A stretch of DNA of 24,530 bases from a virus: the IMG/VR virus record IMGVR_UViG_3300009154_000270, positions 1 through 24,530 of that record; one strand, written 5' to 3'. The position numbers and the translations under genes are program-made. Under the pieces are notes generated by a model that was not told the DNA's origin, did no database searches, and saw only the letters and a program-made list of their open reading frames with translations. Each line of letters starts with the position of its first letter. Position 1 is the stretch's first letter. Positions 647 through 18,643 of this stretch are shown here, in pieces.

Positions 647-1525
647 ATGCAATACTTCGTGAGCGCGGAAAATTCAAGTTATTTCTATTGGCAGTTGGAA
701 CTGCTTATAGAAAGTTTCTTGATGCATGGATTGGAAAATAATTTGGTCATAGGGATGGCCGAGAATAACGATCAGAAAATAAAAGACTATTCGTCTAACT
801 TGGTGCGCTACGGCAAGAAATTTATACATTCTAACGAGGGCAAGGAACTTGGCTACCTTCCCTTGAACCGAGTGGGTGCCCTCAGGTACGCGCTTGCCTA
901 CGACATAATCAAGACACCATTCGTTCTGATCCATGCAGATATGATCCTAAGAAACCCGATCGTGCTCGGCGAGGAAGACAAGGACTATGGAATCATAGTC
1001 AATAACTACGAGGAAATATCGGCCGCAGAGGAGAAGTTAGTCAAGGATTATATAGATCCGAGCCTTCATCGATTGGCTGAAGAGCGGGGAGTAGGGCTAG
1101 ACGAACTTCCGAAACTGCCCTTTGTGTCGGCGCCGATTATCTTTAACGAGCCCTCAGAATATGTGCTAAGTACCTTTTTCTCTAAGTTGCAGTCGAATTT
1201 AATACAAATCATGAAGTCCAAGGACAAGAGCTTTTCATGCGAGCAAGCGGCGTGGGAACTAACGCTGACCGAGTCGTTCCAGCACTGCGGGATAAAAGGC
1301 AAGTTTTTGGCGGCGTCTCTTCTCCATTCGGACGACAACTTGAATTTAATACACTACAAGAACGGAATACCTCCCGTTTTCAACAAGAAGTTTTATCATT
1401 TCAATAATGGAAGTTTCTACAGCAGCCAAGGGCCCTACGAGACGCTGATGGAGCATAATCCGACCGTGAACACAAACTACCTCCAGCAAGTCATAAGATC
1501 ATACAAGAGAAGATACAACAAGTAA
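647..1525 (+). CDS. Glycosyltransferase, resembling hydroxyproline/serine O-glycosyltransferases (GT-A-like)
   Basis: The protein has 292 residues and no signal peptide or clear membrane segment. It begins with a beta strand, then a YWQ motif (residues 14-16), GYLPLNRVGAL (69-79), and VLIHADMILRNPI (93-105), where the Asp sits where GT-A enzymes bind the metal/sugar nucleotide. These three blocks match, in order and spacing, my recollection of the plant hydroxyproline O-arabinosyltransferase and peptidyl-serine galactosyltransferase group (WQ near the N-terminus; LNRP-like block; EPDHIF-like Asp motif). The expected role is transfer of a sugar to Ser/Thr/Hyp of a protein in the infected cell's cytoplasm. 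The PT-repeat protein directly upstream is the obvious candidate substrate. Starting at 647 keeps the first strand intact, although no ribosome site is seen. Its TAA abuts the stop of the opposing gene. The glycosyltransferase call is moderately sure; acceptor and donor are unknown. Confidence 0.6.
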   Translation: MQYFVSAENSSYFYWQLELLIESFLMHGLENNLVIGMAENNDQKIKDYSSNLVRYGKKFIHSNEGKELGYLPLNRVGALRYALAYDIIKTPFVLIHADMILRNPIVLGEEDKDYGIIVNNYEEISAAEEKLVKDYIDPSLHRLAEERGVGLDELPKLPFVSAPIIFNEPSEYVLSTFFSKLQSNLIQIMKSKDKSFSCEQAAWELTLTESFQHCGIKGKFLAASLLHSDDNLNLIHYKNGIPPVFNKKFYHFNNGSFYSSQGPYETLMEHNPTVNTNYLQQVIRSYKRRYNK

Positions 1526-3025
1526 TTAAGCGGCGCCGTGGTCGTCGAACATCTGACGCAACTTCTTTTTGTTAATATCCTTCACTACAGACCCTCTGAA
1601 ATGGGGCGGAACATCGTGCATGCCCAATGTCTTGATCTCCGGGTGAATTTCGGTCGTGGGATTTCCTTGTTCGTCCCTAGCGTGCCAACTTACTAGTTTC
1701 ATCGGGTCCGGCGTAAAGTCAGCGAATCTCTTGACACTTTGCGCCCAGTTTGGACGTGGAGTTCTGACGGTGTGTTTGTCCACCACGTCAAATAGTTCCA
1801 CCCATTTTTTAATCTGATCCTTGGTGATTCCCAAGATCTTTTTCTTGCTCAGAAGATCATCCAGTTGATCTTTGTCGAATTCCTTGAGTCGGAGGAGATA
1901 TACGACTATGTCTCTTTCTTGATTTGACCATCCGGTAGGAGCCTCTCTATCGCCAACCTTTCTATTTCTTCCGAGGGCTCGCTCCACGCTTTCTATCGAA
2001 TTGTCTTTTAGTATCCATGCAAGGGCGAGGTACTTGTCTTTTTTGTCCGCCAGTTGAGGAGGAACTTCTACGTTAAGGTGGACCCCTGGGAGGACTTTCT
2101 TCAAGAGGCCGAGTCTAGAATACATGACTATGTATTTCTTGGGGTCTATTGACGGATCTTCAAGGCCCTTGAGGAATTCCTCTCGGACTCTCTCTAAAGC
2201 CACGCCCTCTAAGTCCGAGAACTTAGATATAGCGTCCTTCAGCGGTTGCTCCATGGGCTGCTTTCCGTACTTGGCTTGCATCCTTATCGCCCTCATGACT
2301 CTGAGTTTGTCCTCGTCAAATCGAGCCTCGGCTTTGCCGACCGCCTTTATTTTTCCCGAATGAAGGTCATGGTATCCGGATTTGGTTGGGTCATAAAGCT
2401 TGCCGTTTTCTCCATCGGCCTTGTTGAGTTCTATGTACATGGCGTTGATGGTAAAATCCCTTCTTTCGGCGTCTTCGTGGGGGTTATCTACGAAGTCCAC
2501 TTCAGACTGGCCGTTGACGGTCTTCGCGTCCTTTCTGAACGTCGCAACGTCAAATTCCTCTCCGTTTACAACGGCACCGACGACAAACGGCTTGTCGGCA
2601 GAATCTCTGCCTTTCAAGTAGTACTTCTTGTTGTCATCGTCCCCTGCGATCTTAGGCTTGAAAGGAAGATCCCATTTTGGATCTTCCTTCGTCATGGAGA
2701 AACCCGCGTTGTGGAGGATCACGGCGATCTGTTCGGGCGTGGCATTTGTTGCAAGATCAAGATCTTTGGACTTCTTTCCGAGCAAAAAGTCGCGTACTGG
2801 ACCTCCGACCAAGAACAAAGATTTCTTGGGCATGGTCACTTTAGATGAAATGTCATTAGTAAGGGATATTGATCCACTGTCGATAAACGCTTGTACAATT
2901 GGACGCAAGTTTGAAGGAGGAATGAATCCTTTCTCTAATTTTATGTATTCCTTACGCCATTCCTTCTTTTCTGTTTCCTCGGATATGACGTCTCTATTTG
3001 CTATAAATTCTTTAAATGATTTCAT
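1526..3025 (-). CDS. cca: Class II CCA-adding enzyme / poly(A) polymerase family nucleotidyltransferase with T4-like capsid-targeting N-terminus
   Basis: The protein has 499 residues. Visible family motifs are GGPVRD (74-79); the catalytic carboxylates in DLD (88-90); EEFDVATFRKD (156-166); RRDFTINAM (188-196); the RFDEDKLRVMRAIRM block (235-249); and an ERVREEFLKGL helix typical of class II enzymes. The family adds CCA (or A residues) to tRNA 3' ends; sequence alone does not separate CCA-adding enzymes from poly(A) polymerases. The first 16 residues, MKSFKEFIANRDVISE, are not part of the enzyme fold. They resemble the capsid-targeting peptide of T4 internal proteins (IPIII begins MKTYQEFIAE), with ISE at 14-16 fitting the prohead protease I/L-x-E site. 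About 120 residues beyond the usual helical domain at the C-terminus are unassigned. A good ribosome site (AAGGAA) lies in the 15-base gap after the upstream gene. It is the last gene of a three-gene minus-strand cluster. Confidence 0.88.
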   Translation of the reverse strand: MKSFKEFIANRDVISEETEKKEWRKEYIKLEKGFIPPSNLRPIVQAFIDSGSISLTNDISSKVTMPKKSLFLVGGPVRDFLLGKKSKDLDLATNATPEQIAVILHNAGFSMTKEDPKWDLPFKPKIAGDDDNKKYYLKGRDSADKPFVVGAVVNGEEFDVATFRKDAKTVNGQSEVDFVDNPHEDAERRDFTINAMYIELNKADGENGKLYDPTKSGYHDLHSGKIKAVGKAEARFDEDKLRVMRAIRMQAKYGKQPMEQPLKDAISKFSDLEGVALERVREEFLKGLEDPSIDPKKYIVMYSRLGLLKKVLPGVHLNVEVPPQLADKKDKYLALAWILKDNSIESVERALGRNRKVGDREAPTGWSNQERDIVVYLLRLKEFDKDQLDDLLSKKKILGITKDQIKKWVELFDVVDKHTVRTPRPNWAQSVKRFADFTPDPMKLVSWHARDEQGNPTTEIHPEIKTLGMHDVPPHFRGSVVKDINKKKLRQMFDDHGAA

Positions 3026-3040
3026 GGTTTTTCCTTCGCT

Positions 3041-3748
3041 TCAATTTTGTTCGTAATTTTGCTTCTTGATTCCTTCTGGCACATTGTCCCTTTTCTTGAA
3101 AGAGAATACACAAGTCAGAACGTTATCTTTATCGACATGCTCCACTTCCGTGTGGGCGTTTACGAAGTCGTACTTCTTGAGTATCTCGGGGTCCACATCA
3201 TTCATCTTTTGAACCGTCATGATGTGGATCAAGGTCTTCGTGAAAGATATTGCAAAGTTTAGTTCTTGCTGGTTCCCAGAGGCGGGAGGGATGAATTTTT
3301 CATCTCCCTCTCTAAATGATTCACCAACCTTTCTTACTCTTGAATCAGTTTCCGGGTCATGTGTCAAGTTATTGACAGCATTCCACGAAGCGGAAGTAAT
3401 CATGTATAGAGGAGTGCCGTCCCTGCGTCTACCCGAAGGACTATCATCCGTGGGCAAAGCCGGCAACTGTAGCGGCAAGGAAACACCGTCAGAAACCTTC
3501 TTATTTGGCAGCGTAGGAATATCAGCTGTTTGTGGAGTTGCTCTTGTAACTCCACCGGAACGTTCGTAGGCTCTACGAGCACCAAGGCCTATGCCGCCTG
3601 CCAAACCGCCTGCCACCATTTGGACAGCGCCCGGCGTTCTGTCGCCTCCGAATGGAATCCCATAGGCAGTTGCTTTATCTGAGACGGTGTCCGAAGAAAG
3701 TTTTGTTCTCTTTGCGATTTCAGATAAGAGCCATTCTTTAAAGTTCAT
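3041..3748 (-). CDS. Unknown protein with tagged N-terminus (possible internal virion protein)
   Basis: The open frame extends to 3802, but I start it at the ATG at 3748. That ATG overlaps the stop of the upstream gene as ATGA, the usual sign of translational coupling, and gives the N-terminus MNFKEWLLSE, matching the tag on neighbouring genes. The 235-residue product has LSE at 8-10, a possible prohead-protease site. A Gly/Ala-rich hydrophobic stretch near residues 40-58 (VAGGLAGGIGLGA) could insert in or touch a membrane. A Pro-rich linker follows, then a C-terminal half that looks like a mixed alpha/beta domain and is also charged. No enzyme motif is recognised. It lies between the coiled-coil membrane protein and the CCA enzyme gene. 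Confidence 0.7.
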   Translation of the reverse strand: MNFKEWLLSEIAKRTKLSSDTVSDKATAYGIPFGGDRTPGAVQMVAGGLAGGIGLGARRAYERSGGVTRATPQTADIPTLPNKKVSDGVSLPLQLPALPTDDSPSGRRRDGTPLYMITSASWNAVNNLTHDPETDSRVRKVGESFREGDEKFIPPASGNQQELNFAISFTKTLIHIMTVQKMNDVDPEILKKYDFVNAHTEVEHVDKDNVLTCVFSFKKRDNVPEGIKKQNYEQN

Positions 3749-4092
3749 AAGGGGCCTTGTAATCCTAGTTTTGTTAGCAGCCATGCAGCCATCGAAACCC
3801 ACAACAACTGTACGAAAAAGTTAAGAGCCATGTTCCAACTCTGCTTTCTCTTGTCGTGATCCGACTCGAAAGATCGGACTTTACTATCTATCTCATAAAG
3901 ATGCTTTTTTACGACCTCAATGTCTTCCGATTCCAAAGTTCTCACCCTAGCCTCCAGATCGTGCTTTGATCGCATTAATTCGTCAATCTCCTTCTCAATT
4001 TCAGAGATTTTTTTTGTGATTGACCTTGCCTTCTCCATTGCTTTGTCAATTGACTCTTTAAGCGAGGAGTAATCTGGATAATCTTCGTCCAT
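3745..4092 (-). CDS. Coiled-coil protein with C-terminal membrane anchor (XhlA/holin-like topology)
   Basis: The ATG at 4092 is preferred over the TTG at 4107 because AAAGG (4096-4100) lies at the right distance before it. The 115-residue product has a charged heptad-like helix from about residue 10 to 83. A single hydrophobic segment at about 88-109 (LNFFVQLLWVSMAAWLLTKLG) is followed by a short tail. A cytoplasmic coiled coil with one C-terminal membrane helix is the topology of XhlA-type haemolysin/holin accessory proteins, so a role in lysis or membrane docking is plausible but not proven. It is first in the minus-strand cluster, and its stop overlaps the next start by 4 bases. It lacks the N-terminal tag seen on its neighbours. 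Confidence 0.7.
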   Translation of the reverse strand: MDEDYPDYSSLKESIDKAMEKARSITKKISEIEKEIDELMRSKHDLEARVRTLESEDIEVVKKHLYEIDSKVRSFESDHDKRKQSWNMALNFFVQLLWVSMAAWLLTKLGLQGPL

Positions 4093-4100
4093 AAGTGCCT

Positions 4101-4130
4101 TTGACAATTGTAATAAGTCATTCTATATAG
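4101..4130 (+). promoter_or_regulatory. Divergent promoter region between minus-strand and plus-strand genes
   Basis: In the 43-base gap (4093-4135) a perfect TTGACA (4101-4106) is followed after 17 bases by TATATA (4124-4129), within the palindrome CTATATAG (4123-4130). The palindrome could act in either direction. Rightward initiation would begin around base 4136, at the ATG itself. Leftward initiation from CTATATAG would give the minus-strand gene a leader carrying its AAAGG site. The 8-base palindrome ACAATTGT (4104-4111) overlaps the -35 box and could be an operator half. Confidence 0.45.
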
Positions 4131-4135
4131 TTGGT

Positions 4136-4585
4136 ATGGATAAAGAACTAGAGTTGGGAGGGGAGGTCATCGGGTCGGATGAGGTCACAGCCGCGAGGCC
4201 TCAAGCACAAGAATTGTCTATCATTAGCGACGAGTCCCTTTTGGGTGTTTATGGCGAAATAATGGACAATTTGCGTGATGATAGAAATCAAGTTTCGGGC
4301 CTTGTCGACACTTTTTCTAACATGGTCCTTAATGACGGCGACTCGTCTACTGCTAGCAAGGAGGCGCTTGTCAATCTTCTCAAGACGAAGATAGAGACAA
4401 GCGACAGGATGGCGAAGATAGCCGACTTAATGACGAGGGTCAAGTTGAAGCAGCCCGACACCTTTCAGCCATGGATGGGGAAGGGTAAGGAAAAAGGCGG
4501 GAACACAATCAATATATACGACTCCAGCGGGATCAACAGAAAGTCACTAATGGAAAAGATTCAGAGGGAGAAGAAAGAAACATGA
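4136..4585 (+). CDS. Small helical acidic protein, possible terminase small subunit (gp16-like)
   Basis: The product has 149 residues. After a disordered acidic N-terminus (1-30) there is a helical core (33-105) with the pattern ALVNLLKTKIETSDRMAKIADL. A Lys/Gly-rich linker is followed by a short strand NTINIYDSS (123-131) and a terminal Lys/Glu-rich helix. This order (helical core, then a short Asn-rich strand, then a C-terminal helix) recalls the small terminase gp16 of T4-like phages, which regulates DNA packaging, but no diagnostic motif is present and no large terminase is in view. The ATG has no Shine-Dalgarno and lies right after the CTATATAG box. The stop overlaps the next start as ATGA. 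Treat it as a conserved unknown with gp16 as the leading guess. Confidence 0.6.
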   Translation: MDKELELGGEVIGSDEVTAARPQAQELSIISDESLLGVYGEIMDNLRDDRNQVSGLVDTFSNMVLNDGDSSTASKEALVNLLKTKIETSDRMAKIADLMTRVKLKQPDTFQPWMGKGKEKGGNTINIYDSSGINRKSLMEKIQREKKET

Positions 4586-5838
4586 ACCACAATCTTGAAT
4601 TTTGGCTAGAGGCTGAGAGTCCGGAACAAGTAGATCCGGTGGCAGCCGCCCCGGAAGCGGGCCCGGAAATGGACGGTGGACAGATGGAGCCAGAACAAGT
4701 TCCGGCCGACGATGTTCCGACCCAAGACGACGTTTCGCAAGATCCCGAGACTCCGGATATGCCCGAGGAGTCCGATAGCAACTTGGATTTTGAGGTGTGG
4801 AAGTCAAATTATTTCAAGGAAAGTGTCAAGGGCGATGCAGCCAAGTTGATGGAAATGCTATCTCCAATGAGGGAACGGGACGAGATGGTGCCTTACCAGA
4901 GGAAGTTCGTGGAAGATAATTGGAATGTGCAACTATTGAGAGCCAACGCTAATGTCGCAAGCGCCTCAAAGAACATAAGAAAGAGCATCAAAGATCAACT
5001 TGACAAAAACAATCCCGCAACGAGCGTTGTCAACCATATCTTTCAAGGGTTGGAGCCGGTTCCAGGACTGAACGAGGCTTTTATAAGAATGATGGGATAC
5101 AGCGGGAACAAGGGCGAGATACATAGAAAGTTTCTAGCGGCGCTAACCGGTTCGGTCCAAGTAAGTAGCAGCCCCGATAAGGAAAATATCATATTCAATG
5201 ATAAGGAATACTCGATCAAGATGTCCACAAGGCTCAACTCGGAATGGGGAGAGGTCGCCCTTGGGAGTTGGAGTTTGAGAGAGGATGATCCCGAGAGATA
5301 TCTGTCAGAGCCCGAACTCAAGAGACTTGCCGAGGGGAGCCCCGAAGAGCGCGACGTGCTGAGGAGAAGGATTGTTGTTGAATCAATCGCGAAACAGTTC
5401 GACGAGCAAGCGTTCATAATAAATGTAGTAGACGACAGCGGAACGATCTACTACCTCGGATGGGACATGTCCAACGCCCTCAGAGGTGCCTACACAGAAG
5501 GCAAAGTGCTCGTCAAAACCGTTAAGTCCGAGAACTCGGAGGCGATGATAACCGACGACGGCCAAATAGTGCCGATGATAGACCTAAAGATCTACTTCGT
5601 GAAGGAGACGGGCGGTCAAGATGAGTACGGCAATCCAGAACTTGACGAGATAGAGTTCATGGAGAAAAGGAACGGAATGCTATTCCTCACGGCCGGGTTG
5701 GCGACCATCAAGGAAGCGGCGGAGGCGATGCAAGGAACAGAATTCAAAGAGTTCGCTTATCCCGGCAACCCGAGCGACTTGAAGGTGCTCAAAAGGTGCG
5801 TATACAGCGTCCACGATCTACTCATGAGGCAGTGCTGA
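4582..5838 (+). CDS. Unknown virion-type protein with acidic Pro-rich N-terminal linker
   Basis: The product has 418 residues. It begins MNHNLEFWLEAE, similar to the short tags on neighbouring genes but without an obvious I/L-x-E site. An unstructured Glu/Asp/Pro-rich stretch of about 55 residues follows, then a soluble alpha/beta body (about 70-418) ending in Cys. No catalytic motif is recognised. The start overlaps the previous stop (ATGA) and the next gene begins one base after its stop, so it is translated as part of the plus-strand operon leading to the tape measure. By position and composition it is probably a structural or internal head protein. Confidence 0.65.
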   Translation: MNHNLEFWLEAESPEQVDPVAAAPEAGPEMDGGQMEPEQVPADDVPTQDDVSQDPETPDMPEESDSNLDFEVWKSNYFKESVKGDAAKLMEMLSPMRERDEMVPYQRKFVEDNWNVQLLRANANVASASKNIRKSIKDQLDKNNPATSVVNHIFQGLEPVPGLNEAFIRMMGYSGNKGEIHRKFLAALTGSVQVSSSPDKENIIFNDKEYSIKMSTRLNSEWGEVALGSWSLREDDPERYLSEPELKRLAEGSPEERDVLRRRIVVESIAKQFDEQAFIINVVDDSGTIYYLGWDMSNALRGAYTEGKVLVKTVKSENSEAMITDDGQIVPMIDLKIYFVKETGGQDEYGNPELDEIEFMEKRNGMLFLTAGLATIKEAAEAMQGTEFKEFAYPGNPSDLKVLKRCVYSVHDLLMRQC

Positions 5839-5839
5839 A

Positions 5840-6328
5840 ATGAAATTTGAAGAATATCTCGCAAAAAATCACCCCGAAATGCTAGACGAGGTCAAGATTC
5901 CCAAGTCATTGCAGAGAGCAATGATGCCTGTGGTGGCGGCGGCGGGACTATTGGGGAGGCCGTCAGAGGTCGGGGCTGCAACGCCTCAAGCCCCGGCTAT
6001 GGATGCCCAAGGCGAGTTCAGCGAAATCCCCTTTGACAGCCGAATAGGTCCGCGCCCCGACCATCACATTTCCGACTATGACTTGTACTACTATCAATTG
6101 AAGAAGGTGAGCGAATTCTTGAAGGATAGACAGATAGCATTCAATATGGGCAAACAGATAACCCCTCCGATGTGGTACGTGAAAATGGGCGATCATTACA
6201 AGTGGAAACGCCCGAATCCACCAAAGTTCTCGGAAAGAGAACAAGCCTACGCAAAGTACATGAACGACAAGAAAAACAGCGAAGATCAAAAACAGATGAT
6301 GACCAGCCTTTACAACAGCACAAGGTGA
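5840..6328 (+). CDS. Unknown small protein with capsid-targeting-like N-terminus
   Basis: The product has 162 residues. MKFEEYLAKNHPEMLDE matches the tag seen on neighbours, and LDE at 15-17 fits the prohead-protease I/L-x-E rule. A short hydrophobic stretch (about 29-38, MPVVAAAGLL) and an Ala/Pro linker follow. The C-terminal half is Tyr-, Lys- and Pro-rich (YDLYYYQL, then PPMWYVKMGDHYKWKRP), suggesting a basic, possibly nucleic-acid-binding or structural domain. The start is one base after the preceding stop. No family is recognised; it is likely an internal or minor virion protein. Confidence 0.65.
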   Translation: MKFEEYLAKNHPEMLDEVKIPKSLQRAMMPVVAAAGLLGRPSEVGAATPQAPAMDAQGEFSEIPFDSRIGPRPDHHISDYDLYYYQLKKVSEFLKDRQIAFNMGKQITPPMWYVKMGDHYKWKRPNPPKFSEREQAYAKYMNDKKNSEDQKQMMTSLYNSTR

Positions 6329-6330
6329 AA

Positions 6331-6792
6331 ATGAGATTTTCAAGCTTCATAGACAAGAAAAACGCGAGGGCCAGGGAGGAGTTGGAGATAATACGCGACA
6401 TACTCAAGGATGGCGGACTCAAAGTACAAGACTTCCTCAAGAGCGATAGTCCCTATATTTTCCTCTCAAGTCCTCAAGAAGGACTAAATTTCGAGGGTGT
6501 GCGAATATACAAAGTTGGATCCAATCTCGCCTACAGAATACAGAACGAAAACTCCACCGAGCCCTACGGCCAAGCCTACTCGCTCGACCTAGAAGATATT
6601 TTTTCTGACCTTGTATCTGACATGTCGGGAGAAAAGGCTGCCGATAAGATCAAAGAAGCGGTTGTGGACGAGTTCAAAAATTTCTTCAAGAAGAGTTCCG
6701 AGGCGCAACAAGAGTTAAATTCAACACCGGGCGATCCGCAAAGTAAAATAATGGTTAACGGAAGCGCTGGAGACATTTCAAACACTATGTAA
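6331..6792 (+). CDS. Unknown small protein with FSSFI N-terminal tag
   Basis: The frame is open from 6172, but that part overlaps the previous gene in another frame. I use the ATG at 6331, which has AAGGTG five bases upstream and sits two bases after the previous stop. This gives MRFSSFIDKKNAR, in line with the tags on neighbouring genes. The 153-residue product has a helical N-terminus, a small beta part in the middle (PYIFLSS to AYRIQNE), an acidic helix, and a disordered Ser/Asn/Gly C-terminus. Function is unknown. It closes the short operon section before the 70-base gap at 6793-6862. Confidence 0.65.
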   Translation: MRFSSFIDKKNARAREELEIIRDILKDGGLKVQDFLKSDSPYIFLSSPQEGLNFEGVRIYKVGSNLAYRIQNENSTEPYGQAYSLDLEDIFSDLVSDMSGEKAADKIKEAVVDEFKNFFKKSSEAQQELNSTPGDPQSKIMVNGSAGDISNTM

Positions 6793-6862: not shown

Positions 6863-7408
6863 ATGGCACTCCAACCCCGTAACAGAAAAAGTTTACTTGA
6901 GCAGTTCTTCGCCCCTGTCGGCCAAGATGTTGCCGCCAACCCCAACCAAAGAATGAAGGGAAACTTCGTGGCGGTAAAGGGTAGCCTCGTCAGTTTTAAC
7001 TACACGTTTTGGAAGCACGATCCGTATCCACTAGTAATAATAATCGACAACAATCCAGCCTCAGACAAATTATCTGGAATTAATCTCCACAGACTAACAT
7101 TCCCGTCCATAAGAGAATTGATTGCGAGAACCGGCAAAATGGGCTTTTCTTACAAGTCCGTTTCCGACGACGAGAACTTTAAGGCCGCCTACCGCTCCTA
7201 CAAGAGAGCAGGCGTGCGCCAGATGAAGGTTCTCGACAGCAATTTCCTTTTGAGAATCATGTCGGCAGTGAGGTCTTACGATCCCGCCGAGGTTCAGATA
7301 ATAAGAAGGCAAGTTCAAGAGCAGATAAGACAACAGATAAATCCAAAAGCCAGCCAAATGACTACTTTAAATCAGCCCCAACAGGGTCAAATTAACTCTG
7401 GAGAGTGA
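6863..7408 (+). CDS. Conserved virion-type protein preceding the tape measure
   Basis: The product has 181 residues. A basic N-terminus (MALQPRNRKSLLEQFFAP) is followed by a compact alpha/beta domain (about 30-140), with a strand reading GNFVAVKGSLVSFNYTFW then HDPYPLVIII. Arg/Tyr-rich helices follow (AYRSYKRAGVRQMKVLD), then a coiled Gln-rich tail (QVQEQIRQQINP). The sequence looks like a conserved small structural protein of large myoviruses, but I cannot give it a T4 name. It is not an obvious tail-assembly chaperone, and no slippery heptamer for a frameshift is visible at its end. Its TGA overlaps the tape measure ATG by one base, so it is translationally coupled to tail assembly. Confidence 0.65.
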   Translation: MALQPRNRKSLLEQFFAPVGQDVAANPNQRMKGNFVAVKGSLVSFNYTFWKHDPYPLVIIIDNNPASDKLSGINLHRLTFPSIRELIARTGKMGFSYKSVSDDENFKAAYRSYKRAGVRQMKVLDSNFLLRIMSAVRSYDPAEVQIIRRQVQEQIRQQINPKASQMTTLNQPQQGQINSGE

Positions 7409-10400
7409 TGGAAGACTCGTTAGGAAAAATAAAAGAAATGGATGCCGCCTTCGAAAGTTTGAAGGCTGCCTTATTGTCTGCGACGAAAGTGGTAGTTGAC
7501 AACTTTTCTAAGGTGGCTGGGGGTCTGGATCCGGATGTTGTTCAAGCATTTAAAGATCTTGGCGAGAACATAGAGCAAAGCACCGACCAATTCAAGAATC
7601 TAGTCACCAAACTTAAAGAGGTTGGTGAGACTATTGAAAAGCAAAAGGCAGAAAAGCCAGCGGGAGTTTCTGAAAAGAAAGTCGAGCCCAAGGCAACAAA
7701 CGACATCCTAAAACAGATATTGAAAAGCCATAAAAAAGCTCGAACGGAGATAAAGGAGGGACTTAAGGGGTTAGTTGGTACTGCCGTAATAAGCGTAGAA
7801 AGCAAAACTGAGAAGGCCGCGGCGGCCGCTTTGCCACCGAGTAGCGGTGGTGGTGGTGGTGGTGGTGGTGGTGGTGGTGGTGGTGGTGGTGGTGGTCCGC
7901 CAGACCCGCCAGATCCTTCAAAGTATGATAAGTACGGCGAAGACATGGCCAAATATATAAACAAAGGCTTCTGGGATGATTTCGGGAAGAAGTCGGCCAA
8001 GTTTGCGATGGGCGTTAGCAACATGATATCCGGCGGCGAAGGCAACATCATGCAACAAATTTTTGCCGGATCGGTTGCCGACGCAACAGAGTTCGGACAA
8101 GAGATGAGAGAGATAGCTTTCCAGACCCAAGGTGTAACTGGCGATTTCAAAGACATGCAGAGAGAATTCGTTAACCTCGGCAGTTCGGTGGTGAGCGAGA
8201 CCGGAAAGTCTATAGATGCTCTCAATAAAGCCGTAACTTCAAACTATAAGAAGGGGTTTAAGAACCAGAAAGAAGGACTTAAGGTTCTGAAGTCAGGTTT
8301 GTACCTATCAACGATGATCGGATCCGAGACTCAACAGACAGCCGATTTGTTTGGCGATTGGCATAGAACTCTAGGGATGAGCGCAAATCAGATGAGCGAC
8401 CTCTCAAGGAGCATGAGAGATGTGGCGCTTTCCACGGGAGTGACAGGCGACGAACTTCTCGGCGCGATGAAATCCTCTGAAGGGATCCTCAAAAACATGA
8501 GGAATCAAGGGACGCTTACCTCCGACGCCGCAAGAAGTGCAATTCAAATGGTCGCCGAATTCAAAAAGACGGGGTTTGAAGAAAATATCAAATTCACAGA
8601 AGCGATGTCCAGTTACGAAGCCCTTCAGAATGCCGACGCTGGGGTACAGTCTACGCTTTACGATGTCGCAAATAGAATTGGTGGCGACGCTTCCCAAAGG
8701 CTTCTTTTCGGAGAATTCGGGAAAACTAGACAAGATCAAGGTGACATAGCTGCAAAAATGAAAGAAATGGTGGCTCACGTCGTTGGCAAAGATACAGAAG
8801 ATTTTGATTTTAAGACAATGTCCAAGGAAGAAAGAAGAACGCTAGCAGTGTTCGCCAAAGCTAGAGGCACGAGCATAGCGGGATTAGAAAATCTAATATC
8901 TACGCATGAAAAAGCAAGTAAGGGTCTAAGCGGAACCTTGGACGATCTAGATCAAAGAGCCAATTCAAAGTTCGGAACCGAGGAAGAAAAAAAGCAAGCC
9001 TTGCAGCAAAAAGATCAAGCCATTATGGGAGCAAGCCAAAATGTGCTGTCGTCACTGAGAGAGAAATCCTCTGGCGATATAGGTTTGAAAGACGCAATGA
9101 CAAGCTTATTCAAGAGCGATGACTTCGCAAATAGCAAGGCAGATATGTCGGCCGCCATGATCAACATGGCCTCTCAGTCTGCGGAGATGGCGAAAAAGTT
9201 CGGACTCAGCGGGACTAAGGAGCAGATGGCGACTCAAGTCGCTGGAATGGACAAAGAGAAGTTCTTCGAGAACAGCATGGTTGCTAGTGTTGAAAATTTA
9301 ATGAAGGCTCAGAAAGAAAAAGGAATGGATGTCGGCGACTACAGCGGAATGCTCAAAGCCTTAAAGACGGGAGATGCAAAGACCTTCAATGAAATGTACG
9401 ATAATTTCGACAAAGACCAGAAAAAACTTGCGATACAAACAGAAGCTGATACTGATCCTCAGAAAAAGCTTAACCTTTCAATATTACAATTCAACGAGAA
9501 TGTAAGAAAATTTATTTCTGGGTACGTCACCGCCTCGATGGCCTTACTCGGAGGCATGGGCTTACTAGGCATTCAACTTGCTCTTAATAGTGCCGCGTTG
9601 TGGGCGACGTTAGGCAGCCCGATCAAGGGAATGGGCGCATGGCTTGCTCGCTTGGGAGGAATGGCGACTCCGGCAGCGGGTGCGGCTGCAACGGGGGCGG
9701 GTGCGGCTCGGCGGGTGCGGCCGGGGGGGGTAAAAGGCTTATTGAGATCGACAGAAAAGTTTGGTAACGCCATGAGGACAAAAATAGTTTGGGCCCTAGA
9801 AGATATTGGAAAAAATGGATCAAAAATTTTCAGATCAATGGGGCTCGGAATAAGAAGATCATTCTGGGCTATTTCAAAGGGATTCAAGGATTCTAGAGCG
9901 GCGGGTCAAGGATATTTTAAAGCCATGGGTAAAGGGGTGCTGAAAGGGTACGGATCTATTTATTCTTCAATTGGAAGATCGAATAAGTTCACCAAGCCAT
10001 TCACAAATGCTTTTATCAAAGGATTTTCTGGAGCGGCAAAATCAGGAGATAGATTCTTCAAAGCTTTTGGAAAAGGCTTTTCTAGGATGATGAAGTCCAG
10101 CGATACAACAAGAAAAATATTTGACTTTTTTGCAAATGGGCTTTCCTCAGCAAGAAAATCACTTCCTATGTTAGATGCATTTGTAAAAGGATTTTCAAAG
10201 TCAACAGCAGCCGGAAATGGGTTTTTTAAAGGATTGACAAGAGGATTTTCCGGTGCGATGAAGTCTAACCAAATCCTAAGATCATTCTCAAGTATAGAAA
10301 ATTTTAGTCAGTTAGTTTCAAATGTATTCGGCAGAATTTCAAAAGCCATTTCGTCTTTAGTTGCGCGAGGCGGTTCTTTGGTTAAATGGTTCTGGAACAT

Positions 10401-16510: not shown

Positions 16511-18643
16511 ATGGCAGACAAAAAAATAAGAATCAGTAAATTAGACAATTGCTCAATCCCTGACAGTATCCGAATCATGGATCAGAGACTCTCCCAAGTG
16601 GAGCAGAGATTTTCTGATATGGGTTACGGAGTGAAGGCGTTAGTGACCACTAGCGTCAAAGATAATATGGGCGTGCCTGCCCAGCAAGAGGCGATATATG
16701 GTATGCACACGGCTATATGCATAAGCACTATAGACCCTTGGAAGATGGGAAGAGTAAGATACTTTAGTCCTTTGCAACATATGATGGAGTCCGCCGTCAA
16801 TTCACTTCCTTGGGCATATCCAATATCAAATCAAGGCGGCTTCGATGATTCAGGATGCACTTGGGTGCCTCCTGCTGGTTCAAAGTTGTGCTTGATATTC
16901 GAGGCTGGGAATAGACAGTGGCCTTACTATCTCGGAACGACTTGGGACAGGGATAGGACACCAGGATGGAACTTTCCGGTTCCAGAATATGAAAAGATAC
17001 ACCGAGGACACAGAGGCGGATATCTTCTCGGCGACGACGAAACGCAAGTTTTTCCTCCATGGAATACGGAAAACTACAATGGAATAGATATTGATACGAT
17101 ATCGGACTTTGAAAATGATCCAGATGCAAGAAATAAGATAACATATCCGAACATATACGGATGGAAAACGCCGCAGAAGCACATGATCAAGATGGTCGAT
17201 GGAAACTACAAGTGTAATTTCCGTTGGCAGAGGCTTGAAATCAAGTCGGCTCAAGGAAACCATCTGATACTCAAGGACGATAGGGTGCATCCGGCCGCGC
17301 AATGGGCTAATCCAAAGTGCGGGTGCGGATCGGGGGACTTCAGCAAGTGTAATGAGGGTGATGAGCCGATAGAAAAACCTGATCAGTGCCCCCCAGATGT
17401 ACAAGGTGACAACACGCCTGTGTCTCCAAGTGTGATGATGATAGGAGGTGGCGGCGGAGGTGGCGGCGGGGGAGGTGGCAGTTCCGAGGGGCAATGTGCA
17501 AATCCTTATTTTAAACATAGAAGTGAGTGCCGCCCATATTCTGGGCCTGGCAATCCCCAGAATAACAAGGTCGACAAGACGACGCTTCCTCAGTCCGGAA
17601 TACAGATGACCTCGTTGAGCGGACACACATTCTGGATGGACGACTCGGTAAAAGAACCCAAGGGAAAAAACAACTGGGAGCGTGGCATCCAGATGTTCGA
17701 CTATGGGTGTGACAAAGTTTTTAAAGGCAAGACGACTTGGAAGTCCGCCCATGGTCACCAGATAATGATCAGTGACGTCGAACCCGATGGATTACCTGAA
17801 ACGAGGGGCGACGAAAACTTCATACGGCTGCTCACGGCCACCGGCAACAGAATAGAGATGAACGACGATACGCAAGGCGAAAACTGCCGTGCGGGGCCGA
17901 GGAGGGGCATTGAACTTCACAGCACCTCTAATCACATCATCCAGATGATCGACGAGAACAACGACCAGTGCGGCCCGAAGAGGAGAGAGGGCGGAATGCC
18001 CACAAACAAGGCTACTGACGCGTTCGTAAGGATAAGAACCGGATACGGCTTAGAGATAATGATGGCCGACGACAACCACCAGAAAGACACCCAGAGCCAG
18101 TATATCCAGATCATGGCTCCTCAGTATGATGCTTGCTGCGGGCCTCACTTCATAAGAATGCAAGAGAGCGACTATTGCGGCTATATCTTCGTAAGGGCCG
18201 GTGGCGACTACATGTGTATGACGGAAGGAGACCACGTGACTGTCGTAGGGGTGGGAAAAACCACACCTCCAGATGATTTTTGCAAGGGTGGATGTCTAGG
18301 TCCAAAGAATTGGATGACAATGGTTTCTAAGCACTCGATTCACATGTCGTGCAATTTTTACTTCAATATAGCCGAGATTCATGCGTTTTTAGCAGACAAG
18401 TTCATATTGCTTATGGCGGGCAAGGATTGTCCGCCTCCACCAGAATCGGAAAGCATGAAGTGTGTGCCTTGCGTCGGTCAAGTGGCGGTCTTGCTCACCG
18501 ACCCCATTACAAAGCGATCCAAGCTCGTGGCTAGCGATAGAGTTTTCGCATCGGCATCACTTGAGGCTCAACCCATAAGCATACTAATGATGATGGACAA
18601 GAGCATCGGCGTAAACTGTCCTCCTCCCTATGAAGGTAATTAA
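16511..18643 (+). CDS. Baseplate central spike protein with N-terminal OB-fold (gp5/VgrG/gpV-like)
   Basis: The product has 710 residues. Residues about 66-145 form the OB-fold of tail spikes: ICISTIDPWKMGRVRYF, then WVPPAGSKLCLIFEAG and WPYYLGTTWD. After a linker with a run of 12 Gly (312-323) come repeated units with the VgrG/gp5 beta-prism signature 'G-(H/N)-x-I-x-(M/L)-x-D-D': NHLILKDD, GHTFWMDD, GHQIMISD, GNRIEMNDD, NHIIQMIDE, GLEIMMADD. The C-terminus is Pro/Cys-rich. About 25 Cys are present, several paired (CGC, ACC, CKGGC, CVPC). No lysozyme motif is seen between OB-fold and prism, unlike T4 gp5. The trimer would be the membrane-piercing tip beneath the hub. Its TAA is one base before the preferred start of the next gene. 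Confidence 0.82.
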   Translation: MADKKIRISKLDNCSIPDSIRIMDQRLSQVEQRFSDMGYGVKALVTTSVKDNMGVPAQQEAIYGMHTAICISTIDPWKMGRVRYFSPLQHMMESAVNSLPWAYPISNQGGFDDSGCTWVPPAGSKLCLIFEAGNRQWPYYLGTTWDRDRTPGWNFPVPEYEKIHRGHRGGYLLGDDETQVFPPWNTENYNGIDIDTISDFENDPDARNKITYPNIYGWKTPQKHMIKMVDGNYKCNFRWQRLEIKSAQGNHLILKDDRVHPAAQWANPKCGCGSGDFSKCNEGDEPIEKPDQCPPDVQGDNTPVSPSVMMIGGGGGGGGGGGGSSEGQCANPYFKHRSECRPYSGPGNPQNNKVDKTTLPQSGIQMTSLSGHTFWMDDSVKEPKGKNNWERGIQMFDYGCDKVFKGKTTWKSAHGHQIMISDVEPDGLPETRGDENFIRLLTATGNRIEMNDDTQGENCRAGPRRGIELHSTSNHIIQMIDENNDQCGPKRREGGMPTNKATDAFVRIRTGYGLEIMMADDNHQKDTQSQYIQIMAPQYDACCGPHFIRMQESDYCGYIFVRAGGDYMCMTEGDHVTVVGVGKTTPPDDFCKGGCLGPKNWMTMVSKHSIHMSCNFYFNIAEIHAFLADKFILLMAGKDCPPPPESESMKCVPCVGQVAVLLTDPITKRSKLVASDRVFASASLEAQPISILMMMDKSIGVNCPPPYEGN
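17444..17479 (+). repeat. Twelve-codon polyglycine tract in the spike gene
   Basis: Twelve consecutive Gly codons use a mixture of GGA, GGT, GGC and GGG, unlike the pure GGT tract at 7846. Mixed codons suggest that the polyglycine itself is conserved as a flexible loop or linker rather than recently expanded. Confidence 0.9.

Follow-up and report, generated by a model that had tools for sequence, protein, structure and literature searches.

A T4-type capsid-targeting-like N-terminal tag on many proteins of a huge-phage clade, including its CCA-adding enzyme

We analyzed a 24.5-kb linear virus fragment (G000, IMG/VR record IMGVR_UViG_3300009154_000270, hereafter the window) in which five proteins begin with variants of one short sequence, close to MKxFKEWLEE. 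This N-terminal tag is enriched beyond chance in the window and in its relatives, and its residues strongly support membership in the same kind as the T4 capsid-targeting sequence found on the internal protein IPIII (MKTYQEFIAE). We consider it likely that the tag is such a sequence and that huge phages of one clade, which have a T4-like head, employ it on a large scale. What appears to be new is the occurrence of the tag on the CCA-adding enzyme throughout this clade, the relatives of this enzyme starting at their catalytic head.

A shared N-terminus and its enrichment

A preliminary description of the window had proposed that five otherwise unrelated proteins share an N-terminus and that three of them carry an I/L-x-E motif close behind it. 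All five N-termini are present at ATG starts (3025(-), 3748(-), 4582(+), 5840(+) and 6331(+)), those at 3748 and 4582 in an ATGA overlap with the preceding stop codon, and the three motifs lie where they had been placed. Inspection of roughly the first 20 residues of the 418- and 153-amino-acid (aa) proteins revealed no I/L-x-E. The tagged genes are as follows:

2996..3025, minus strand: tag MKSFKEFIAN at the ATG start of the CCA-adding enzyme, ISE at residues 14-16
1526..3025, minus strand: CCA-adding enzyme (tRNA nucleotidyltransferase), 499 aa; PF01743 3.3e-27, phrog_2244 3.1e-42
3719..3748, minus strand: tag MNFKEWLLSE on the 235-aa protein, LSE at residues 8-10
3041..3748, minus strand: tagged 235-aa protein of no known family; phrog_21303 at E 0.02 only
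4582..4611, plus strand: tag variant MNHNLEFWLE (L for the first aromatic), start of the 418-aa protein
4582..5838, plus strand: tagged 418-aa protein, in which a hypervariable linker up to about residue 49 separates tag and conserved body (alignment)
5840..5869, plus strand: tag MKFEEYLAKN on the 162-aa protein, LDE at residues 15-17
5840..6328, plus strand: tagged 162-aa protein of no known family (Pfam and PHROG scans)
6331..6360, plus strand: tag MRFSSFIDKK on the 153-aa protein, without cleavage site
6331..6792, plus strand: tagged 153-aa protein, adjoining tail genes throughout the clade (conserved gene order)

To count the tag we used a strict pattern, M-x(1,2)-[FY]-x2-[FWY]-[LIVM], and a broad one that admits the fifth window start, MNHNLEFWL, in which L replaces the first aromatic. 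A single gene caller was used for every record, with starts picked by codon use and ribosome site and not by the tag, and the null was obtained by shuffling residues 2-20 over 1000 rounds. The strict pattern matched 4/18 window genes versus a shuffle mean of 0.07 (4 was reached in 0/1000 rounds) and the broad pattern 5/18 versus 0.28 (maximum 2 in 200 shuffles). Since the pattern was derived post hoc from the window, the relatives serve as the independent test. These were longer IMG/VR records (G001, 143.6 kb, with 56-96% identity to the window over the compared genes; G007, 225 kb; G009, 131 kb; G006, 340 kb; and others) and the 595-kb uncultured phage LR756511, the sole match of the 418-aa window protein in the phages collection (48.6% identity, 95% covered).

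The genome-wide search that had been suggested for the tag revealed clear enrichment in the relatives: 16/165 genes in G001 (shuffle mean 0.71, maximum 4), 23/272 in G007 (0.82, maximum 5), 12/129 in G009 (0.41, maximum 5) and 26/861 in LR756511 (3.31, maximum 9). With the near-copy records G005 (8/54), G003 (7/93), G002 (5/179) and G004 (4/50), the counts of all eight relatives lay beyond every one of the 1000 shuffles, save that of G002, which was reached in 2/1000. G001, G002 and G003 are near copies of each other, with identical CCA enzyme N-termini, and were therefore not counted as independent; the window itself has near copies in G004 and G005. The distant relative G006 had the strict pattern at only 4/454 called starts; with nearby ATGs admitted it gave 10 versus a null of 2.0 (maximum 6 of 200), and G001 gave 21 versus 1.0. 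The controls all fell inside the shuffle range (T4 3/235, S-SSM7 2/228, P-SSM2 3/248, phiKZ 0/306), as did 200 kb each of two other huge phages (LR756508 1/255, LR756502 1/240). The tag was also commoner at gene starts than at internal Met positions.

The carriers are diverse. After removal of residues 1-14, the four strict-pattern window proteins formed separate BLAST clusters; the 4582 protein lies outside the strict pattern and hence was not in this test. Across records, 89 tagged proteins fell into 73 clusters, few of them common to several records, which rules out gene duplication as the source of the tag.

Tag anatomy, the cut motif and the T4-like head genes

Among 73 representatives, K was commonest at residue 2, and the commonest residues from the core onwards were F-K-E-W-L-E-E (F in 68; W in 43 at core+3; L in 40 or I in 14 at core+4; E in 27 at core+2, 27 at core+5 and 17 at core+6). 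The core aromatics are given by construction of the pattern; the core lies at residue 3 or 4 in strict matches and starts as late as residue 6 in some CCA enzymes. According to the accessible text of PMC9026906, the aromatic residues 4 and 7 of T4 IPIII are needed for targeting, residues 8 (I/L) and 10 (E) govern processing by gp21, and D at residue 10 blocks cleavage and leaves targeting intact. The likeness to IPIII noted in the preliminary description is found at these very positions, 4, 7, 8 and 10.

The cut motif is concentrated behind the tag. [LI]xE occurred inside residues 6-13 in 28/78 tagged proteins (mean 10.8, maximum 22, in 5000 shuffles behind the core), and L/I-x-E in residues 7-25 was present in 54% of tagged versus 22% of untagged proteins. 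Sites ending at residue 10 numbered 13 versus 1.2 expected from untagged proteins, an excess due in part to the hydrophobic residue that the pattern imposes there; those ending at residue 11 numbered 8 versus 1.2, with no help from the pattern.

The tag is also conserved within families. In the 235-aa window protein aligned with 6 orthologues (29-91% identity), M1, F3, W6, L7 and E10 are invariant, the tag being retained while the body evolves fast. M1, F3 and F6 are invariant in 7 aligned sequences of the 153-aa family (39-86% identity to the window), and the 418-aa family retains [N/A]-[L/V]-x-x-W-L ahead of its hypervariable linker (NLQSWLE, NVDAWLA, NLDDWLM, NLEDWLD and ALEEWLI in relatives). 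Orthologues of the 162-aa protein were found in 2/12 loci searched.

The preliminary description was unaware that one carrier is a CCA-adding enzyme and that others have RNA-healing or counter-restriction domains. The window enzyme matches PF01743, a head domain of the Pol-beta type, at 95.7 bits versus a cut-off of 23, and its GG-x-VRD motif (VGGPVRD) begins at residue 72, after the tag and a linker. A core looser than the strict pattern, F-x-x-[FYW]-[LIVMF] with F at residue 4, 5 or 6, is present in 19/19 CCA sequences of the clade, and 13/19 have L/I-x-E. In phages outside the clade (six named phages and the nine contigs L279, L280 and L282-L288, with L289 not counted), the homologues begin at the catalytic head. 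In a tree of the catalytic head, with the N-terminus excluded, a branch with 100/99 support split the 19 tagged from the 15 untagged rows, several of the latter on long branches. The tag is a module, since the AAA_33 kinase family has both tagged and untagged members, even inside G007: among ten kinases over the cut-off, five are tagged (G001, G020, G025, G027 and, at an internal ATG, G007 196063) and five are not (G006, three in LR756511 and G007 134418).

The search for a gp21-like protease, also suggested earlier, was successful in part. PF03420 (gp21 family, S77 protease) was found in G001, G007 and G009 (3/13 records searched) and matched twice in LR756511, with T4 and both cyanophages matching as positive controls; the window and G006 had no match. 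Among contigs picked by their CCA enzyme, 7/21 had the protease, including 5/14 with a tagged enzyme (G014, G019, G020, G025 and G027). H85, S140 and D168 of T4 gp21 are invariant over four aligned sequences; we take H85 and S140 to be catalytic residues. The second S77 peptidase match in LR756511 (242621-242989, minus strand, L117) is weaker, at 34.8 bits, and distant from the head genes.

The head genes are arranged in the order portal, 598-aa protein, protease, scaffold-like protein and capsid, with four other genes separating the portal from the 598-aa gene in G001. Portal and protease of G001 matched phrog_213 (3e-77) and phrog_207 (7e-50), respectively, and the G009 capsid protein phrog_138 (1e-81); T4 gp23 shares 30-31% identity with the capsid proteins of LR756511 and G009. 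[LI]xE sites number 3.9-5.2 per 100 residues (background 1.17; T4 gp22 5.9) in the gene that lies between those of protease and capsid, and we call its product scaffold-like from gene position and site density alone.

The best explanation, and a likely one, is that the N-terminus common to these proteins acts as a T4-type capsid-targeting sequence. The amphipathic start (F4, W/F/Y7 and L/I8) would attach to the scaffold core during assembly and bring the protein into the prohead. The gp21-like S77 protease would then cut behind L/I-x-E where present, and the freed protein would remain with the DNA in the head and reach the host together with it; tagged enzymes would act from the first moments of infection.

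Several observations weigh against this explanation. L/I-x-E is absent from residues 7-25 of 46% of tagged proteins and from residues 6-28 of 6/19 clade CCA sequences; with about half of the tagged proteins lacking a cut site, many would stay unprocessed in the head, if packaged at all. Pairwise conservation among the CCA enzymes is 0.39 in the first 10 residues, versus 0.48 and 0.51 in the head and 0.30 in the linker. No gp21-family protease is encoded in the window, a 24.5-kb fragment, and the majority of the relatives searched, being fragments, gave no match; the protease was found in 2/7 contigs with an untagged CCA enzyme and so is not exclusive to tagged ones. The scaffold-like protein, the presumed partner of the tag, has no PHROG match, and we found no virion proteomics for this clade in the literature. 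A late-promoter test, with upstream words selected after inspection, gave no clear picture: TATATA preceded 10/18 tagged versus 49/433 untagged leaders in LR756511 and only 2/7 structural leaders there, its difference failed to reach significance in each of the remaining three records, and no tagged leader was preceded by the T4 late word TATAAATA.

Two other promoter-like words were observed. In the 60 bases upstream of LR756511 leaders, the element AAGCTGTACT was noted, AGCTGTA occurring in 40/433 untagged non-structural leaders, 0/18 tagged and 0/7 structural ones; it looks like a promoter class, and the contrast with tagged genes falls short of significance. In the related phage G009 the word differs (GGTGTATAAC), TGTATAA lying upstream of 16/72 untagged and 0/9 tagged leaders.

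An unlikely alternative is that the tag directs core or scaffold parts to the prohead for assembly, to be cut up or expelled later and never delivered. The tagged genes do adjoin tail and end-protector genes in conserved order, and in the 153-aa family neither a cleavage site close to the tag nor a recognized fold was found. However, 89 proteins in 73 clusters, few common to several records, are not what this would predict, and carriers with RNA-repair, restriction-evasion and host-modification domains would make poor scaffold. Slightly less probable still is a tag that sorts proteins elsewhere, to a membrane, replication compartment or host complex, its likeness to T4 being convergent. Short amphipathic N-termini are used by many sorting systems, and about half of the tags have no cleavage site; against this, the spacing of positions is identical to that of the T4 tag, the cut motif is enriched directly behind it, and the tag accompanies a T4-type head and protease and is absent from phiKZ. 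Chance, or a translation-start effect in which AT-rich codons after the ATG favour K, N and F, is very improbable: the pattern is short and about 3-5 of the 26 LR756511 matches are expected by chance, but the counts contradict such an origin, shuffles and internal Met positions fail to reproduce them, and codons vary (core+3 is dominated by W, TGG; L comes from six different codons, and E and F from both of theirs), which argues that selection acts on the protein and with the other two tests rules out this source.

Tagged cargo, a possible tRNA repair role and window neighbours

If the tag is a capsid-targeting sequence, the carriers are putative cargo. We scanned 60 of 124 broad-pattern proteins from six records with Pfam, giving priority to longer proteins in our choice; the five window carriers were scanned separately. 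A family over the cut-off was found in 17/60. Eight had RNA or tRNA end-processing families (one CCA enzyme, three HAD_SAK_1, two cREC, one tRNA-ligase phosphodiesterase and one AAA_33 kinase), four had families of restriction evasion or host modification (ArdC-N, SAM lyase, ART-PolyVal and GNAT) and five had others (GP88, SpoVR, DUF5661 and two primases). SpoVR and the two DnaG-like primases are probably chance matches of the broad pattern and were given no weight, and the same goes for a thiamine-enzyme-like protein (LR756511 326559, named by eye from its sequence). A SAM lyase domain (PF23780, 6.8e-12) is encoded at G006 206179-207531 (plus strand, L253), the protein starting MRFSFRKWLEAE (broad pattern).

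As a control, 80 untagged proteins of 100-700 aa were drawn at random, and RNA-repair families were present in at least 3/80 (RlaP, 2H and AAA_33) among the matches listed (first 25 of 31 and of 27 families). The greater frequency of RNA repair among carriers is suggestive only, since p was 0.055 counted by protein (8/60 versus at least 3/80) and 0.29 counted by family (5 versus at least 3), and an enrichment of tagged genes in RNA repair is thus not established. Counter-defence families occur among untagged genes too (Acb1, Mom, Macro and GNAT).

HAD_SAK_1 (PF10307), the family of Swiss-army-knife HAD RNA phosphatases, was found in 6/14 records, the window being outside the 14: over the curated cut-off in G020, LR756511, G009, G007 and G006 and below it in G019, with no match in G001. 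Its tag lies at the called start in G007, G009 and LR756511, at an internal ATG in G020 and, by a relaxed pattern, in G019, and is degenerate in G006. The gene adjoins that of the CCA enzyme in G007 and G006, is one gene apart from it in LR756511 and G009, and is close to it in G020 by coordinates. cREC was tagged in 2/2 cases, one by the broad pattern only. None of six RNA ligase matches (4 over the cut-off) and neither of two 2H matches (1 over the cut-off) was tagged, and RtcB had no match in 10 records. The idea of a whole RNA-repair kit as tagged cargo was narrowed accordingly, ligases, 2H and 5/10 AAA_33 kinases being untagged and RtcB unmatched. In these small numbers, the tag is present on several enzymes that clean or rebuild 3′ ends and absent from the sealing ligases, which fits a tRNA 3′-end kit better than one for anticodon-loop breaks.

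We tentatively propose, as a possibility short of even odds, that the phages carry in their virions a tRNA 3′-end repair kit that is injected and mends host tRNAs cut by first-minute immune tRNases. The kit would comprise the CCA-adding enzyme and the Swiss-army-knife HAD phosphatase, which in several members are encoded jointly and each bear the tag, with tagged cRec, cyclic-phosphodiesterase and kinase proteins added in some phages. It would counter cutters of the CCA tail such as Cas12a3, which, according to the portion of PMC12851939 available to us, cuts CCA tails of tRNA in phage defence, its authors adding that resistance would require means yet unknown in viruses. We lowered our estimate for this role somewhat because RNA repair was not significantly commoner among tagged genes than in the control. 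If true, it points to a way for a phage to withstand immune systems that cut tRNA tails, one that could be tested in vitro.

The window further encodes a gp2-like end protector, a homologue of T4-like baseplate gp6 and, in a long gene, a tape-measure-like protein. Neighbours of the tagged genes are:

3745..4107, minus strand: untagged coiled-coil-like protein, 120 aa if started at TTG, 115 aa if at ATG 4092
4136..4585, plus strand: untagged conserved protein, 149 aa; 48-100% identity in related loci
6863..7408, plus strand: gp2-like DNA end protector; phrog_429 E 1.3e-4

The 235-aa protein had no Pfam family at E 0.1. AlphaFold2 gave a low-confidence model of the 418-aa protein (predicted local distance difference test, pLDDT, 56.7) and one of the 153-aa protein at pLDDT 71.5, in which the tag is placed, with low confidence, where helix 3-27 begins; a fold search with the latter gave nothing at E ≤ 0.001. 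Window 647-1525 (plus strand) encodes a 292-aa protein of no known family starting MQYFVSAENSSYFYWQLELLIESF, and look-alikes of its N-terminus adjoin CCA/HAD genes in G006, G009 and G020. A long GGT repeat at 7845-7895 encodes a glycine run near the start of the 2212-aa tape-measure-like protein, and another Gly run is found in the 710-aa protein encoded at 16511-18643.

Comparison with known phage systems

The closest known system is that of T4. The tag shares with IPIII its start, the aromatic spacing, the hydrophobic residue at 8 and, often, E at 10, and the clade has a gp21-family protease and T4-like head genes. In T4 the strict pattern matches three genes (IPII, IPIII and gp61.1), and it undercounts, since it misses both Alt, with its different start, and IPI (MKTFKEFTS), whose residue 8 is T. 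Clade records have up to 16-26 such genes and, unlike T4, prefer W at position 7, include known enzymes among the carriers and lack a cut site in about half of them. T4 gp61.1 (NC_000866 18966-19130, minus strand, L173), annotated as hypothetical, starts MKTFKEFIKED, a near-perfect tag with I-x-E, which makes it a candidate for a further T4 internal protein. If our explanation is true, the T4 internal-protein system would grow from a handful of factors to about 10% of called genes in some records (16/165 in G001), and a ten-residue code lists injected huge-phage proteins from sequence alone, most of them without a known family.

Alt itself, a head-packaged and injected ADP-ribosyltransferase, resembles the tagged ART-PolyVal of G007 (198943-199296, PF18760 1.3e-9); however, this putative cargo belongs to another ART family, and the start of Alt is outside the pattern. 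The polyvalent injected proteins described in the accessible text of PMC5512222 likewise have ArdC-N, ART and GNAT domains proposed to travel with DNA, whereas the clade has mostly small proteins with one short tag in place of one large fusion. As had been anticipated, T4-like cyanophages also have the tag (P-SSM2, MKSFKQFLEEA and MKSFSQFLTET; S-SSM7, MKSFGQFLTEA), but with 2-3 strict-pattern matches per genome, inside the shuffle range. In the literature searched (titles and abstract openings, with few subscription journals), we recognized no earlier account of the tag among huge phages or of RNA repair enzymes being packaged. The nearest counterpart of the proposed kit is the RNA repair set of jumbo phages (PMC7824862, accessible part), which has the same CCA-adding enzyme, Swiss-army-knife HAD, cRec and kinases; packaging goes unmentioned in its section 3.4.9, whereas in our clade several of the end-healing enzymes, and not the ligases, bear a packaging-type tag.

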